DNA of 21,548 bases from a virus: IMG/VR virus record IMGVR_UViG_3300037728_000008, positions 1-21,548 of that record. One strand, given 5' to 3'. This document shows, one piece after another, positions 3,285-17,462 of this stretch; position 1 is the stretch's first letter, and each line of letters starts with the position of its first letter. The notes beneath the pieces are model-generated. The model saw nothing but the letters and a program-made list of their open reading frames with translations. It was not told the origin of the DNA and did not search any database. Made by a program: the position numbers and the translations under genes.

Positions 3285-3294
3285 TTATATATAG
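3285..3294 (-). promoter_or_regulatory. candidate phage promoter before the S74 fibre gene
   Basis: The minus strand reads CTATATATAAAC, ending 25 bases before the fibre ATG at 3259 and overlapping the TAA stop of the nuclease gene. The same CTATATATWAA core occurs at 11456-11466 and 20529-20538, each time upstream of a structural gene. It resembles, but does not equal, the T4 late promoter TATAAATA. No -35 element is evident. Confidence 0.4.
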
Positions 3295-6200
3295 GTTACT
3301 TTGCTCTTTTCGCTTCCCGAAGACCGGATCTCCATAAGGTCGTCAACCATATCCCTCATCATATCCACGTGAGAAATCACAACCGCAAATTGAAATTGAG
3401 TCTTCAAGTAGTCAAAAAGAAGTCCCATGTTGTTTAGGTTCGTCCGGTCTGCCGACGAAAAGCCCTCGTCAATTGCAAGAAAGTTTGGGCTTGGAAGGTT
3501 TGCAATATTGATAAGAGCAATCCGAATGGCAAGGCTTGAAATGAACCTTTCGAAATTTGAAGCGATCTCTAACGGCCACGTGTCTTCTTCGTTATAGCTG
3601 ATGAATGCGTCTACGTTTTTTCCGTCAAGCTCCATTGAAACGGTAAATTCGACCATGCTTGAAAGAATAGAGTTCACCTCGCTTTCAATCGTTGGCATAG
3701 CTCGACCGATAAGCTCGTACGGAACGCCGTCTCTTTTTGTGGCTTCAAGATAGTATTCGTAGGCGCGGTTTTCTTTCTTTAGCTTCCGGTATTTCTTTAA
3801 CTTCCGGGTCGCTTCTTTTTTGTCTCTCTCTGCCACCTTCATATCGGAGTGCTTTTCACGAGCCTCTTTTGAAACTTTCTTTTTTTCTTGCTCAAGATTG
3901 GAAATTTCCTCCTTTACTGGATCGATTTTTGTTCGGATCTTCCGGTTATGTTTTAAGTCTTCTTTCTTCTTTTCATACTCTTCAATCCGGGACTGGACAG
4001 TTGAAAGCTCACCCTTCACTTTTGACAGTTTTACCTCTTTTTCGTTGGCTTTTGATTTGAATTTTTCTACTTTACCCCCAATAGACTCGATTTTATCTTG
4101 AATCTCTTTTACCCGCTCGAAGTTTTCTTTGGGGCTTTCGTCTTCTACCTCTTGTTTAAGCGTTTTCGATTCGGACATGACGGTTTGGAATTCCGATTCG
4201 ACCGACCGAAGGTCTTCTTGGTATTCTTCAAGCTTCTTTGCATCCTTTTCGTTCCTCCGGACGCAATACTTACAGTCCGGGTCAAACTCCGAATGAGACT
4301 TAATGTGCTCGATAGAGTCTTTAAGCTGCCTTCTTCTTTCTTTTAGGTTTTTGGCACGAGACTTGTTGCTGGATAGCTTCTCTTTTTTGTCTTTCCACTT
4401 TTCGTAGCGGTTTTTGACCTCTTCTACGTCAAAAGAGTTTTCAAGAAGCTCTTTATACCCTTCAAGCGGCTGTTGGAGTTCCCTCTTTTTGATGTGAAAA
4501 TACTTAACGTCTTCGGCCACAGATTCTTTTTTGTCTTCGAGTCGGGATTTCTTTTCTTTAAGGGAAGAAATGTCCACATCTTCGACCGAAACGTCTTTTA
4601 ACTTCTGGTTTAAGGAAACCAGCTTTTCGTTTTTAGCCTCGATCTTTTCTTCAAGGGCCTCTTCTTTGCTTGAAAGCTTTTCGTAGGCGTTTAGAGCCGC
4701 TTCATGGCGCTTCTCTGCCGAAGATATGTCTTGGGATAGGCTATCCCCTTCGTACTCTTTAAGAAGCGTTGTGGCCTCTCTACGACGGTCTTTGGCCTTA
4801 CTATGGAGCTTGTCAAACACGTCAATTCCGATGAACCTCGAAAGCATGTCCTTCCGCTCCGCTTGGGTCTTTTCCACAAACACCGTTCCGTCTGTCTGTG
4901 TAGAAAGAGCCGTTGTAATAAATTCTTCGTATTCCCCGATATATTCCCGGATGTTCTTGTTCGTTTTTCTTCTTCTCTCTCCGTTCAAAGACGTTGTATT
5001 ACCCCCATCTTCTTTCACGTAGAAGTTTACGTCAACAGGAACACGGCCTTGGTGCCCCTTCTTTTCTCCGCTTCTTTCAATTACGTACTCTTTCCCATTG
5101 ATTTCAAGAACGGCTTTAGAGGAAAACCAGTCGGAGTCGTTGTTTAAGACCTTCTTTGATTTCCTTGTTCTAGAACACCTGTCAAACAGGCAGTAGCTAA
5201 TCGCGTCAAGAATTGAAGACTTCCCGCTTGCGTTATCTGCAAAGATTCCGATGATCCCGTCTGCTTGGGTAAAGTCAATTGTGTTGCCCTCCCCATAAGA
5301 GAACATATTCGAAAATTCAAACCGCTTTAACTTCCAATTCAAGCTTCGGTTTTCCCACTTTTTGACCTCTGAATTTAAGTCTCTATTAATTGAACGGATA
5401 TTTTGAAGAATCTCTTCGCTTACGTTTTGAGATTCAGTTAAGTAGCTTTCAATAAGTTCGTTTTGGCGCTCTACGTCTTGAACGTTTCCGATTTCAAGGG
5501 AAGAGTCTCCGCTTTCGTTTTCTAAACTCGAAGAAATCCCGGACCTATTCACGGAAACCTCCTGCACGTCATACATTTTGCGAAGGTCTGCAACGATCCG
5601 TTTCGTTTCTACCGGGTCTGTGTTTTGCACCCGAAGCCGAAGCCTTGGCTTTTTTGGAACGTCTTCTGGAACCGGATACGCGCCGTTTTCTACATCTAAG
5701 GTGTAGAACCCATATTCGTTTTCAACCGGAATAAACTCTACGTCTTCGCTTTCAACCGCCCACAAATTTGTTCCGTGACCGGAAACAGGCTCCCCGTGGT
5801 TCTGTTGAATCAAGCTACCGGAGTACAAGACCTTTTCGTTTGAGTCCAAGAATTGTCGTTTATGAATGTCTCCCAGAAGAGCCATGTCGTATCCTTCAAA
5901 CATCCCGACGTTTACCTCTTCAGAACTTAACGTCCATCCGGTATCTGTCGTTGCGCCATTTACAACCCCGTGATAAAGCGCAACTTTCGGTTTCAAGTCC
6001 GGAATAGAGTCTGCCTTTGGGTAGTTTTTTGGCTTGTCAAGTTGGCTCATGTGAGCAAAAGCCACACCACCTACCTCAAACGTTTCTGTCTCTCTACTGT
6101 AGTAGATCCGGGACGTATCAATGTTTTTAACAATCGGAGTGAGACTGTCCATCCGGTCGTGGTTAACTAAATTTTCGTCATGGTTTCCCGGAATCAAAAC

Positions 6201-6458
6201 CGTTGGGGCAACAGAAGAAAGACGCCTCAAAAAGTTCGACGCCACATCCACAAGCTCGGGCGTAAGATCCGTTTTGGCGTGAACCACGTCCCCTAAAACG
6301 GCAACAATGGTTCCTTCGGTTTTTCTTTTTTCAATTTCTTCATACAGATTTTCAAAAACCTTTTTGTACTCGTCGTGCCTTTTTAGCGTCCGGATGTGAA
6401 CGTCTGCGATTTGAAATATCTCTGTTACGTTTTCGATTCCAATGTCAACCTTTTTCAT
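3285..6458 (-). CDS. single-chain Mre11-Rad50 (SbcD-SbcC, gp47-gp46 type) recombination nuclease
   Basis: This 1057-residue protein combines both subunits of the Mre11-Rad50 complex, which resects double-strand ends for recombination. Residues 1-260 are the metallophosphatase: DVH at 19-21, GD at 56-57, GNHDE at 91-95, His163 and GDIHK at 196-200. Residues 260-370 contain a capping-like region and a charged helical segment. Residues 375-1057 are the Rad50 ATPase: a Walker A at 407-415 reading ADNASGKSS, a Lys/Glu-rich coiled coil at about 550-900 with a CKYC zinc hook at 729-732, a signature region at 967-974 reading SNFERFIS, Walker B LAIDE at 994-998, and an H-loop at His1030. T4 gp47 and gp46 are separate proteins of about 339 and 560 residues. 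The gene lies 59 bases after the primase and shares a leader motif with the resolvase gene. Domain assignments are secure; activity of the altered motifs is inferred. Confidence 0.93.
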   Translation of the reverse strand: MKKVDIGIENVTEIFQIADVHIRTLKRHDEYKKVFENLYEEIEKRKTEGTIVAVLGDVVHAKTDLTPELVDVASNFLRRLSSVAPTVLIPGNHDENLVNHDRMDSLTPIVKNIDTSRIYYSRETETFEVGGVAFAHMSQLDKPKNYPKADSIPDLKPKVALYHGVVNGATTDTGWTLSSEEVNVGMFEGYDMALLGDIHKRQFLDSNEKVLYSGSLIQQNHGEPVSGHGTNLWAVESEDVEFIPVENEYGFYTLDVENGAYPVPEDVPKKPRLRLRVQNTDPVETKRIVADLRKMYDVQEVSVNRSGISSSLENESGDSSLEIGNVQDVERQNELIESYLTESQNVSEEILQNIRSINRDLNSEVKKWENRSLNWKLKRFEFSNMFSYGEGNTIDFTQADGIIGIFADNASGKSSILDAISYCLFDRCSRTRKSKKVLNNDSDWFSSKAVLEINGKEYVIERSGEKKGHQGRVPVDVNFYVKEDGGNTTSLNGERRRKTNKNIREYIGEYEEFITTALSTQTDGTVFVEKTQAERKDMLSRFIGIDVFDKLHSKAKDRRREATTLLKEYEGDSLSQDISSAEKRHEAALNAYEKLSSKEEALEEKIEAKNEKLVSLNQKLKDVSVEDVDISSLKEKKSRLEDKKESVAEDVKYFHIKKRELQQPLEGYKELLENSFDVEEVKNRYEKWKDKKEKLSSNKSRAKNLKERRRQLKDSIEHIKSHSEFDPDCKYCVRRNEKDAKKLEEYQEDLRSVESEFQTVMSESKTLKQEVEDESPKENFERVKEIQDKIESIGGKVEKFKSKANEKEVKLSKVKGELSTVQSRIEEYEKKKEDLKHNRKIRTKIDPVKEEISNLEQEKKKVSKEAREKHSDMKVAERDKKEATRKLKKYRKLKKENRAYEYYLEATKRDGVPYELIGRAMPTIESEVNSILSSMVEFTVSMELDGKNVDAFISYNEEDTWPLEIASNFERFISSLAIRIALINIANLPSPNFLAIDEGFSSADRTNLNNMGLLFDYLKTQFQFAVVISHVDMMRDMVDDLMEIRSSGSEKSKVTYI

Positions 6459-6517: not shown

Positions 6518-7462
6518 CTAAAGTGAAACCTTGTGTTTGATAAGTTCTTCAAACCCAAGAGTGGGTTCGTTTTTCATCCGTTTCCAACTTCCGGAAAACC
6601 CAAGGTCTGCCGGGTCTTCATCTTCAAGTCGAACAAGCCGAACGTCTTGGCCTTGGTTCATAAGCTTCTCGGAGATTTCAACTCCCGCCTCAAATGCGTC
6701 CCCGTCAAGCATCAAATTGATGTGTGGTGGGTTGGTAAGCAAAATCTTGTTGAAGAGTCTAGAGTGAATCTTTTTGCTCATAAGGCAGGTAGCGTTTCGC
6801 CTACACGCCATAGCGTCAAATACCCCCTCCACGATTGTAAGCGGCTCTGACCAATCGATAAGGCTATCAAATATAATGACGTTTCTTGACGTTTTCGGGT
6901 TAAGATACTTCAAAGACGAACTTCCAAAAAAGTCCCTTCCGGTGAAATAGTTTAAGTCCCCGTCTTCGTCGTAACTTGGAATGATGATTCGGTGTTGATA
7001 CTTTCCCTCTTTGCACCATCCAATTTTGTATTTAATCATATCTCCACGAGTGATTCCGCGCCTTTGGAGATAGTTGTACGCATAGTTCCATTCGTAGCCG
7101 GGGTGCTCTTTCCACATCGGCTTATATTCTTCTGGAAGGGAGAGAACGTCAACGCTAGAAGAGGGTTTGTCCTTCTTCCCCCCATAGGAAGGCCGATCCA
7201 AAGCCTCTGAAAGCTTCTTGAAAAGATGTGACGGGGCATTTAGTTTCTTTAAAAGAGTAAACAGACTCTTCCCACTTTCTTTACATACCCAACACTTATA
7301 GAACCCAAACTCTTGTTTTGACGGGTCTAAGTTCACCGAAAGCTTCTTTTTGTGGTGCCCACAGAACTTGCAGTGAAACAGGTGTTCTCCTTTGTTTACC
7401 TCCCGGTAATCGTTTCCTAAAACGGTTGTGAGAACGTCTAAAACCTTTTTCTTTTTGTTCAT
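6518..7462 (-). CDS. DnaG-type DNA primase
   Basis: This 314-residue primase would make RNA primers for lagging-strand synthesis. An N-terminal zinc-binding domain has CKFC at 31-34 and CWVC at 57-60. This is a Cys4 set rather than the Cys-His-Cys2 arrangement usual in bacterial DnaG. Residues 125-195 match the DnaG core, with YLQRRGITRGD, GWCKEGKYQHRIIIP and a GRD segment. The TOPRIM domain follows, with Glu212 in TIVEGVFDA, Asp253 and Asp255 in MLDGD, and DPADLG at 283-288. There is no helicase domain, so it resembles a stand-alone T4 gp61-type primase with a partner helicase outside this window. A stem-loop lies between the resolvase gene and this one. The leader contains a TATACA that might be a -10 and an AGG about 9 bases from the ATG, one of the few Shine-Dalgarno-like sites here. 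Confidence 0.92.
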   Translation of the reverse strand: MNKKKKVLDVLTTVLGNDYREVNKGEHLFHCKFCGHHKKKLSVNLDPSKQEFGFYKCWVCKESGKSLFTLLKKLNAPSHLFKKLSEALDRPSYGGKKDKPSSSVDVLSLPEEYKPMWKEHPGYEWNYAYNYLQRRGITRGDMIKYKIGWCKEGKYQHRIIIPSYDEDGDLNYFTGRDFFGSSSLKYLNPKTSRNVIIFDSLIDWSEPLTIVEGVFDAMACRRNATCLMSKKIHSRLFNKILLTNPPHINLMLDGDAFEAGVEISEKLMNQGQDVRLVRLEDEDPADLGFSGSWKRMKNEPTLGFEELIKHKVSL

Positions 7463-7578: not shown

Positions 7579-8130
7579 TTATTGAAGATTGTGTTCAACG
7601 TAACTGCTTGCCAATACGATGCTATCAGCGGCGTCGTCTGTGCCCGGACGCGGGTTTCCAGACCGGGTAAGTTCCCACTCAATATTGTACCTATTGGAAG
7701 CTTCTTCGATAACCCAACCTTTTGAGTCTTTGTACGTAGACCACGGGCTATTGTAAGAAGACGGTACCCTTCCACGATCTAGAAAACTTCTCTTTTTGGC
7801 CGTGGATGGATGAACCTTCATGACAGCATCTTTTCCAAGACGCTTGACAAGCTCGTATTCGATGATTGCGTTAAATTGAAGCAAAACCGAAATCGACGTT
7901 GTTGTTGTCATTCCACCATAGTTTTTCAAGGCGTCTTCTAAAACAACCACGTCTGCGTCTTTAATTTCCGGCCATACGTGCTTGTCAAACTGTTCGACCA
8001 AATCTATAAGGTCGTAGTCGCTGTCTTTTTTGAATTTGTGCCAGTCGTAAGAAATAAGTTCTCCGTCCCCAGACATTAAAGCAAATCCGGCGACGGTTGT
8101 TGATAGGTCAAGTCCTGCAACTGTTTTCAT
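7579..8130 (-). CDS. RuvC-like Holliday junction resolvase
   Basis: This 183-residue protein has the RNase H-like fold of RuvC-type junction resolvases, which cut four-way DNA junctions. The acidic catalytic set is visible: Asp8 in GLDLSTT, Glu65 in VVLEDAL, and the C-terminal Asp165, Asp166 and Asp169 in GTDDAADSIVLA. The central region at 70-115 (QFNAIIEYELVKR, then KVHPSTAKK) matches the helical part and the strand carrying basic residues in this family. In a T4-type phage this role belongs to the unrelated gp49 endonuclease VII, so the gene would be a functional substitute, trimming branches before packaging. Its leader shares an element with that of the Mre11-Rad50 fusion, and a stem-loop follows it. 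RuvC-fold proteins also include transposases and other nucleases, but size and motifs favour a resolvase. Confidence 0.85.
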   Translation of the reverse strand: MKTVAGLDLSTTVAGFALMSGDGELISYDWHKFKKDSDYDLIDLVEQFDKHVWPEIKDADVVVLEDALKNYGGMTTTTSISVLLQFNAIIEYELVKRLGKDAVMKVHPSTAKKRSFLDRGRVPSSYNSPWSTYKDSKGWVIEEASNRYNIEWELTRSGNPRPGTDDAADSIVLASSYVEHNLQ

Positions 8131-17078: not shown

Positions 17079-17462
17079 TTATTCGTCTTCAACTTCGTGC
17101 CACTGGTTGCACCATCCTTCCGGCTTTACTTTGCCGCGAATTTGCGAGCAAATGTGGTCTCCAGTCGCAACTTCTTTATATAGATATTCACAGTTTAAAC
17201 ACTTCTGTTCTCCGCTGGCTTCGTCTACGTATTGAGAATCTTCTTTCGACATTTTATAGGGTGGAGTTCCAGACCCCAACAACCAATAAAGAAGAATGTT
17301 TGTGCTTCTTTCATCCGGGTCCATGTTTTTGAACCGCTCTATGGCCTGCTTTACTTCTTCGGGGGCGTTTTTCCCGGCGTCTGGATACTCGTATTCTTCG
17401 GACAGAAGCTTTTTTACCTCTTCCTCAACAACTGAACGAAGTTTCTTTTTTGAAAGATACAT
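17079..17462 (-). CDS. small protein with HiPIP-like iron-sulfur motif
   Basis: This 127-residue protein ends in a cysteine pattern C88-x2-C91-x13-C105-x12-C118, with the last Cys in GWCNQW. High-potential iron-sulfur proteins have C-x2-C-x16-C-x13-C and the same GWCxxW ending, and the upstream KEDSQYVDEA matches their conserved Tyr region. A 4Fe-4S cluster is therefore plausible; a zinc-binding site is the alternative. Residues 4-22 form a basic/acidic amphipathic helix (SKKKLRSVVEEEVKKLL) that resembles the N-terminus of the Gln-rich protein at 19757-20485. Residues 30-70 form a helical linker. It sits between gp6-like and DNRLRE-like genes with gaps of 21 and 12 bases. I recall similar small HiPIP-like proteins in phage genomes, with no established function. 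Confidence 0.7.
   Translation of the reverse strand: MYLSKKKLRSVVEEEVKKLLSEEYEYPDAGKNAPEEVKQAIERFKNMDPDERSTNILLYWLLGSGTPPYKMSKEDSQYVDEASGEQKCLNCEYLYKEVATGDHICSQIRGKVKPEGWCNQWHEVEDE

Follow-up and report, generated by a model that had tools for sequence, protein, structure and literature searches.

Polypeptides in which the Mre11 nuclease is joined to the Rad50 ATPase were described by Yoshida, Claverie and Ogata in 2011 (PMC3175470). That account lists 13 fusions of Mre11-first order, Mimivirus R555 and 12 others. One of them is from a phage, Bacillus phage 0305phi8-36, and is without one P-loop segment and without the cap/helix-loop-helix region. Abundant aquatic-virus relatives of the fusions were also inferred there. 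The two proteins are usually separate, as a first-pass annotation of the DNA studied here had stated and as we found for E. coli, T4 and two further phages, one staphylococcal and one T5-like. We analyzed a viral stretch of 21,548 nucleotides (IMG/VR record IMGVR_UViG_3300037728_000008), referred to below as the window, in which that annotation had recognized such a fusion.

One frame encodes Mre11 followed by Rad50

An uninterrupted polypeptide of 1057 residues, with Mre11 ahead of Rad50, had been proposed. The frame was found at 3285-6458, running from ATG with 0 internal stops; it lies on the minus strand, which the first-pass annotation had missed, and the plus strand of the same interval holds 35 stops. 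Pfam returned Metallophos (PF00149) at residues 14-200 (E 7.6e-8) followed by AAA_23 at 383-621 (E 1.7e-15), both above the curated cut-off. The motifs stand in the same order: D19xH21, G56D57VVH60, G91NHD94, H163 and G196DIH199 for Mre11, then a Walker A ending in G412K413S414, C729xxC732, the signature region S967-E970, Walker B LAIDE at 994-998 and H1030 for Rad50. It is confirmed that the interval comprises an SbcD/Mre11 part, a joint of about 9 residues and an SbcC/Rad50 part in one frame (Table 1).

Table 1. Features of the fusion gene and its upstream neighbors, in window coordinates
Feature	Position	Strand	Basis
Mre11-Rad50 (SbcD-SbcC) fusion gene, 1057 aa	3285..6458	-	frame, Pfam, fold model
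Calcineurin-type phosphoesterase (Mre11/SbcD nuclease) domain, residues 1-257	5688..6458	-	PF00149 14-200
Cap domain (strand-helix-strand), residues 268-306	5541..5657	-	model E270-278 H282-295 E300-305
Flexible linker, residues 307-328	5475..5540	-	pLDDT <50 at 307-319; 7/22 residues differ vs L003
Helix-loop-helix, presumed Rad50-binding element of Mre11, residues 329-364	5367..5474	-	predicted helices H329-343, H348-364
9-residue connector (fusion joint proper), residues 365-373	5340..5366	-	between H348-364 and E374-383
Rad50 N-lobe with Walker A, residues 374-560	4779..5339	-	AAA_23; 375-1057 matches SbcC 7yzo_D
Coiled coil, residues 561-905	3744..4778	-	long helices in model
Zinc-hook motif C729-x-x-C732	4263..4274	-	alignment columns
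Rad50 C-lobe (signature region, Walker B, H-loop), residues 906-1057	3288..3743	-	motifs and fold match
DnaG/TOPRIM-type primase gene, directly upstream	6518..7462	-	phrog_47 E 2.6e-47
RuvC-like resolvase gene, next upstream of primase	7579..8130	-	phrog_159 E 1.4e-6

The structure model of the protein has a mean pLDDT of 84.2 and a pTM of 0.50, so the relative placing of the domains is not settled. SbcD structures match model residues 10/11-305 (Z 24.6-25.7), and the match stops at 305, the end of the cap; aligned with S. aureus SbcD (7dog_A) by VIA-align, the nuclease and cap (11-305) gave Z 25.7 and rmsd 2.9 over 274 residues. PF00149 and these structures identify a calcineurin-type phosphoesterase fold with a cap domain. 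In a structure search, the best match of the Rad50 part (375-1057) was E. coli SbcC (7yzo_D; Z 33.3, rmsd 3.1, 351 aligned), which together with AAA_23 identifies a bipartite ABC head with Walker A, signature and Walker B. The long helices of the model and C729xxC732 mark an antiparallel coiled coil. Two predicted helices, 329-343 and 348-364, occupy the position expected for the helix-loop-helix that binds Rad50 in the passage of PMC3175470 on T. maritima Mre11, and the first Rad50 strand of the model starts 9 residues after them. This predicted fold agrees with the earlier proposal of a nuclease anchored at the coiled-coil base; that the fusion sets a 1:1 stoichiometry may fairly be inferred.

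Conservation of the catalytic motifs

Columns were counted in an alignment of 69 sequences including the window (A2); of 71 loci remaining after dereplication, L026, L061 and L097 were dropped from it because their matched stretch crossed a stop. D19, D57, N92, H93, H163, D197, H199, G412 and K413 are each present in 69/69; Walker B D997 and E998 are each present in 68/69, the other row being a gap. Zinc binding is predicted from the hook, whose C729 occurs in 69/69 and C732 in 63/69 (gaps in the remaining 6). H21 is replaced by Gln in 11/69 relatives.

Among the Mre11 metal ligands (DxH, GD, GNH, H, GHxH), the window protein keeps all except the first His of GHxH, which is Asp (D197) in 69/69. 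The position corresponds to the second metal-site His, His206 of P. furiosus Mre11 in the numbering of PMC3175470. This Asp is ruled out as a hallmark of fusions: GHIH is found in the fused PAU protein, and GDLH in the T5-like SbcD, which is a separate protein. T4 and E. coli have GHxH. The ABC signature of the window reads S-N-F-E, with Asn at residue 968, where 66/69 sequences have Gly; the signature Gly is changed in the relative L003 too. Since this Gly is replaced in the window protein, its ATP chemistry may be altered.

The fusion is genuine and common

The Mre11 and Rad50 genes are near neighbors in E. coli, T4, one staphylococcal and one T5-like phage, so one lost stop could mimic a fusion, and the single frame might stem from two adjacent genes joined in error during sequencing or assembly. 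The data make this extremely improbable. The fusion gene of a 223,357-base contig (L002) is identical to that of the window base for base. In L003, whose protein is 86% identical, codons 258-373 over the joint show 10/6/46 differences at first/second/third positions and 12/116 changed residues, a coding-type substitution pattern. Among the matches listed in a viral scan, 80/80 loci have one frame >900 aa, in a set that favors full-length matches and includes the L003 contig again. These three results rule out an assembly artefact for the family. In addition, the fusion is a single CDS in five annotated cultured-phage genomes, those of Microcystis phage Mel-JY01 (WWT39521.1), Tenacibaculum phages pT24 and PTm1, Sphingomonas phage PAU (gp288) and Chryseobacterium phage MA9V-1. 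There it is annotated as 'AAA domain containing protein', 'metallo-phosphoesterase', 'DNA repair' or 'gp288'; hidden under such names, fusions may be missed or half-counted by surveys that seek a pair.

At least 589 relatives were found in one IMG/VR scan. We classified 180 loci, 9 of which were second fetches of contigs already present (all fused), leaving 171 contigs. Both parts are in one frame in 115 of these, 'fused' meaning that one frame opens at the nuclease start and continues past model position 440. Fifteen of the 124 fused loci encode <980 aa; 13 of them run off the locus, L107 contains a run of N and L174 a frame break. Nine contigs were left unclassified, 7 of which are in the viral-scan set and have a frame >900 aa there. 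A search for close relatives on plasmids gave 2/72,556 records, both matching only the Rad50 N-lobe, and with the pT24 protein as query no relatives were found among plasmid records. An interrupted copy in LR756508 gave no worthwhile match to a Group I or II intron in Rfam. The first-pass annotation had presented the fusion as unusual and had named many known fusions of the same layout as grounds against its view; such fusions are indeed many, in PMC3175470, in annotated cultured phages and in IMG/VR.

Relatives split between nuclease and cap

In 35 contigs the protein is split between nuclease and cap, not between Mre11 and Rad50, and the Mre11 cap and presumed Rad50-binding helices are on the Rad50 polypeptide. 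These phages, which do not figure in the first-pass annotation, have the same primase upstream. Their nuclease ORFs end about 14-15 residues past the last matched position and their Rad50 ORFs start with their own cap; a split intein as cause is thereby ruled out. Within our limited search this boundary appears to be new.

The most simple reading of the cap and presumed Rad50-binding helices on the Rad50 chain is fusion followed by re-splitting. On balance we favor that the fusion was re-cut between nuclease and cap, the Rad50-gripping part now being Rad50's and the nuclease a free subunit of ~270 aa; the direction from fusion to fission and the exchangeability of the nuclease are what we infer. 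A tree allows this without proving it. It was built from 152 sequences cut to 51 at 62% identity, so that only 9 split rows remain; it excludes split loci whose Rad50 ORF runs off the locus, is without the C. kluyveri plasmid fusion, the Bacillus phage 0305phi8-36 fusion and Mimivirus-type proteins, and carries a long-branch warning (MA9V-1 with the rest, T4 with the staphylococcal phage). In the free tree the split forms join pT24-type fusions with weak support (54/31); a tree joining them to window-type fusions was 0.65 log units higher (p-AU 0.561).

Alternatively, the fused form may not be ancestral to the split relatives: genes for a nuclease and for a cap-helix-loop-helix-Rad50 protein came first and were joined later in the fused phages. 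More than one branching order of the split forms relative to the two fusion types (window and pT24) is compatible with the data, and a topology that unites all fusions and leaves the split forms outside them is not rejected either (p-AU 0.092). However, fusions flank the split clade in both the free tree and the window-type-joined tree. Moreover, Rad50 of E. coli, T4, one staphylococcal and one T5-like phage begins at its own first strand, without cap and helix-loop-helix; had there been no fused stage, these elements would have had to be transferred separately to give the shifted boundary. We therefore regard this order of events as possible but rather doubtful, and prefer fusion followed by re-splitting.

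Gene neighborhood and proposed function

A primase homologue lies <=600 b upstream of the fusion in 96/104 loci, and a RuvC-like homologue was found in only 7/110 (window's gene as query). In the 223-kb contig the fusion is the sole phrog_77 (Rad50) match; a second metallophosphoesterase frame of 223 aa is present (PF00149 E 2.1e-10). The annotation of the cultured relative Mel-JY01 includes a RecA, PolB, a gp41-type helicase and a capsid resembling that of T4. With this RecA as query, homologues were found in 4/8 large records searched but none in the 223-kb contig, where RecA gave a sub-cut-off match only (PF00154 E 4.7e-7).

The fusion is very probably a complete SbcCD/Mre11-Rad50 DNA-end-processing enzyme in one chain, from a large tailed phage, working as an M2R2 dimer in recombination-dependent replication. 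Two chains would pair via their nuclease domains and ABC heads, so that a single gene yields the usual M2R2 machine, and the helix-loop-helix of each would act in cis, clamping the coiled coil of the same chain at its base. ATP would close the heads and gate DNA access to the two-metal nuclease, whose activity would be Mn-dependent, and the CxxC hook may tether a second coil. By analogy, a T4 gp46/gp47-like role together with the adjoining primase, in end processing for recombination-dependent replication, is the most likely function.

The fusion might instead have another job, such as host DNA degradation or action on competing elements, and be minor in phage recombination. A different role was suggested for cellular fusions in PMC3175470, where every cellular host of a fusion, Deferribacter excepted, is noted to have a separate canonical pair as well; the metal-site Asp and the altered signature Gly of the window and L003 point the same way. 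Yet the 223-kb contig offers no other Rad50 match, the primase adjoins the fusion and the core catalytic columns are nearly invariant, which makes such a job unlikely, and DNA-end processing for the phage remains our preferred reading.

With one gene and so short a joint from helix-loop-helix to Rad50, the fusion offers structural work on Mre11-Rad50 a naturally compact construct. The re-split relatives show that the subunit boundary is not fixed in evolution. If the preferred descent is true, gene fusion served as a bridge moving a domain between subunits, and it becomes testable whether nucleases can be exchanged while the Rad50 scaffold stays fixed.

Comparison with known systems

T4 gp47/gp46, the T5-type SbcD/SbcC of Proteus phage 1 and E. 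coli SbcD/SbcC are the same enzymes in the same order, but as two polypeptides with the usual Mre11|Rad50 boundary, whereas the window has one chain. Mel-JY01 has one CDS with both enzymes and groups in one clade with the window fusion in the tree. The pT24-type fusions also have both in one CDS but are longer (1301-1326 aa), and pT24 is distant (23% over one 728-column segment). Of the best ten BFVD folds, seven carry virus names (969-1389 aa; 1114-1426 alignment columns including gaps; E 5.4e-73 to 4.7e-47), two are nameless and the tenth is pT24; the seven names we take to be those of giant viruses of eukaryotes.

The window fusion agrees in layout with those of PMC3175470: both domains in one frame, N-terminal Mre11, a middle of cap/helix-loop-helix length (in most of those fusions), a short joint and C-terminal Rad50. 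An aquatic-virus distribution, and primases among the phage-like genes of the same scaffolds, are likewise reported there, as is GDxxH with the His206-to-Asp change in Mimivirus R555. Unlike R555, the window fusion is from a phage, and full-length phage sequences now place it in a recurring primase locus, for which the 2011 metagenome scaffolds were too short. The window fusion is a member of a type known since 2011 and common in aquatic phages.

Structure of the fused protein

The long frames of the window lie on the minus strand, and one of them had been read in the first-pass annotation as an uninterrupted Mre11-Rad50 fusion of 1057 residues. This was borne out: positions 3285-6458 encode a 1057-aa protein from ATG to stop, the ATG being the earliest start possible within the open frame, and no clear Shine-Dalgarno sequence was seen in the bases preceding it. 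A gene identical at the nucleotide level is carried by a 223-kb contig (L002), and the window, which is a complete virus record of 21,548 bases, is probably a piece of a larger genome. In L003 (protein 86% identical), the joint codons 258-373 differ at 10, 6 and 46 first, second and third positions respectively, a substitution pattern that indicates, at the codon level, a translated and constrained stretch.

Features of the window and of the fused protein
Feature	Position	Location or order	Basis
Fusion gene	3285-6458 (-)		
Primase	6518-7462	upstream of fusion in reading direction	phrog_47, E 2.6e-47
RuvC-like gene	7579-8130	upstream of fusion in reading direction	phrog_159, E 1.4e-6
Fibre-type protein with S74 chaperone domain		downstream of fusion gene	
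gp25- and gp6-like baseplate genes		farther from fusion gene	
Metallophos	residues 14-200		Pfam
phrog_77 SbcC	residues 316-1043		PHROGs, E 1.4e-54
AAA_23	residues 383-621		Pfam
Nuclease, last strand	residues 249-257	end of nuclease	AlphaFold2 model
Cap	E270-278, H282-295, E300-305		AlphaFold2 model
Low-confidence stretch	residues 307-319		AlphaFold2 model, pLDDT < 50
Helix-loop-helix	H329-343, H348-364		AlphaFold2 model
Connector	9 residues	between helix-loop-helix and first Rad50 strand (from 374)	AlphaFold2 model

The protein was modelled with AlphaFold2 from 69 aligned sequences (mean pLDDT 84.2, pTM 0.50). In VIA-align, residues 11-305 matched SbcD of S. aureus, nuclease and cap included (7dog_A, Z 25.7, rmsd 2.9, 274 aligned), and residues 375-1057 matched E. 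coli SbcC 7yzo_D (Z 33.3, rmsd 3.1, 351 aligned). On these results the window protein is predicted to hold every canonical Mre11-Rad50 part, and the model places the joint between the helix-loop-helix and Rad50. The claimed order, Mre11 then Rad50 in one polypeptide, stands by Pfam, PHROGs, AlphaFold2 and VIA-align. Two sites depart from the usual residues. The His206-equivalent metal ligand is Asp in 69/69 aligned sequences. The ABC signature region (window 3543-3563, residues 966-972) reads ASNFERF, the signature Gly being replaced by Asn in the window and L003; Gly stands at 968 in 66 of the 69 sequences.

Relatives split at a shifted boundary

Relatives with two genes were read against a fused-family profile. 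Their nuclease ORF (259-278 aa) matches the model up to about position 250, while the second ORF matches from about 243-280 through the end and measures 777-793 aa in the 32 loci containing it whole; the two lie 269-2666 bases apart. The extra N-terminus of the second ORF (21 sequences) aligned with the cap and helix-loop-helix of the fusions (45 sequences) over 98 columns (hhalign probability 96.0, E 4.4e-9). In an AlphaFold2 model of one such ORF, from L132 (28 sequences, mean pLDDT 83.8, pTM 0.56), the elements E5-11, H18-31, E37-43, H64-77 and H84-101 precede the Rad50 strand at 110, with pLDDT < 50 at 45-51, and match those of the window fusion in kind and order. Exactly two matches, the nuclease and cap-Rad50 genes, were found by whole-record profile search in 7/7 split records, which are possibly incomplete. 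In contrast to these relatives, whose second protein opens with cap and helix-loop-helix, Rad50 of E. coli, T4, a staphylococcal phage and a T5-like phage starts with its own first strand. In G003, a Bacteroidales MAG contig, the order of the two pieces is reversed and about 12 kb separates them. A small coiled-coil-looking ORF lies between the genes in several loci (L132:5785-6285, L136:5788-6315, L126:7119-7532 and others) and overlaps the nuclease stop in some; no clear family was found for the two such ORFs scanned.

A homologue of the window primase was present on the same strand within 600 bases upstream in 96 of the 104 loci having at least 1,200 bases upstream (110 loci examined, some of them near-identical or sharing a contig), and within 2.5 kb upstream in 39/45 loci of the split group. 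Because the primase is upstream in both groups, the two forms sit at corresponding positions. Elsewhere in the window, a 127-aa protein (17079-17462) matches high-potential iron-sulfur proteins (PF01355, E 1.3e-5, above the cut-off), which is unexpected in a phage baseplate region.

A 51-row, 587-column tree, with the canonical rows and MA9V-1 as long branches, grouped the window-type fusions (support 94/93), the split forms (100/99) and the pT24-type fusions with LR756501 (100/99); the branching order among the three groups was not settled. In the free tree the split forms grouped with the pT24-type fusions, though weakly (54/31). Constraining window-type fusions and split forms together scored slightly better than the free tree (p-AU 0.56), and a topology uniting all fusions to the exclusion of the split forms was not rejected (p-AU 0.092). 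On the boundary evidence we favour a single fusion and a single later re-splitting, which the tree does not prove.

Distribution

An IMG/VR pattern scan with an alignment of 12 fusions gave at least 599 stretches and at least 589 confirmed relatives; a single frame > 900 aa was found in 80/80 of the best loci kept, a sample biased to full-length matches. A scan using just nuclease domains, headed by a nuclease-only one, gave at least 599 stretches and at least 592 relatives, and the best 80 added 76 new locus ids (8 being contigs already in the set): 31 fused, 35 split, and 10 in which the nuclease ORF alone was identified. In all, 171 different contigs were sorted: 115 are fused, 35 are split, 12 show the nuclease ORF only and 9 remained unclassified, a ratio that is no frequency estimate, best matches having been selected by similarity. 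Among the 35 split contigs there are 28 distinct Rad50 ORFs that are complete. Among GTDB contigs, 33 pattern matches gave 13 loci, all in MAGs, perhaps phage contigs binned with their hosts. In one of the collected loci, L107 (WOR-3 bacterium chromosome, CP070664.1), the fused gene is interrupted by a run of N, and a similar C-terminal half lies about 1.4 Mb off on that chromosome; this is perhaps phage sequence mis-scaffolded into a bacterial MAG.

By tblastn, 625 of 50,697 INPHARED records had a match, and at least 80% of the query was covered only in the 484-kb LR756508, whose copy of the gene is interrupted. The fusion is annotated as a single CDS in Mel-JY01, pT24, PAU, PTm1 and MA9V-1. 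Seven of the ten best BFVD folds belong to named viruses, from Tupanvirus (E 5.4e-73) to Pyramimonas orientalis virus, which we take to be giant viruses of eukaryotes; of the other three, two are unnamed and one is pT24. A 1009-aa 'recombination exonuclease' of Listeria phage LMTA-57 (A0A068CB47) also aligned to the fusion model in BFVD (1138 columns), whereas staphylococcal phage Clo6, the one herellevirus read, has two genes.

Interrupted copies

In three split loci (L118:6475-10784, L120:7380-10812, L124:6012-8906) the Rad50 gene is broken within Walker A. The first ORF ends GGK/C... with a short N-intein-like tail, and the next opens with an intein-like domain (PF14890, E 4.5e-6 to 3.6e-5, under the Pfam cut-off) ending VSHN/TT. 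By these sequences the break looks like a split intein at the P-loop, presumably of the atypically split type. In L118 and L120 the halves are separated by an ORF of about 340 aa, which in L118 weakly matches DUF559 and an HNH family. In LR756508.1 (L013:4980-9205), the fused gene is interrupted shortly after GDIHKRQ by a 305-aa ORF, which carries a TnsA-like nuclease domain (PF08722, E 5.8e-6); no Rfam intron was found there. The 735-kb phage LR756501.1 carries a 1202-aa fusion and a second, stronger SbcC match (670999-672753) containing four stop codons in frame (1 TAG, 3 TAA). The fusion in L174:4956-8073 is broken within the coiled coil into two overlapping frames, by a frameshift or sequencing error.

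Comparison with known systems

The first-pass annotation had set the fused layout apart from the usual two proteins; it is not new, PMC3175470 already covering the architecture, a structural argument and sporadic spread, with likely phage origin for the marine homologues. Because architecture and spread are given there, the window fusion belongs to an already described kind of protein. Limited searches of open-licence PubMed Central, with passages of PMC7824862 and PMC2988022, turned up neither the shifted split boundary nor a split intein in a phage Rad50, which weakly hints that both are absent from prior literature.

The cultured Microcystis phage Mel-JY01, of the window clade, is annotated with RecA, a gp41-type helicase, PolB and a T4-like capsid. 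Homologues of its RecA were found in 4/8 large records searched and not in the 223-kb relative of the window, which has a 372-aa RecA-type frame under the Pfam cut-off. Mre11-Rad50/SbcCD is an ATP-gated two-metal nuclease by which DNA ends are processed and tethered, and T4 gp46/gp47 is described as helping to generate 3' ends for recombination-dependent replication (PMC3175470); SbcC and SbcD are, according to a 2021 survey (PMC7824862), conserved practically throughout jumbo phages and belong to their core recombination apparatus. The fusion would likewise process and tether DNA ends as an ATP-gated two-metal nuclease. By analogy with SbcCD and T4, and because of the jumbo-phage survey and the recombination genes of Mel-JY01 and relatives, it should be the phage's own gp46/gp47.
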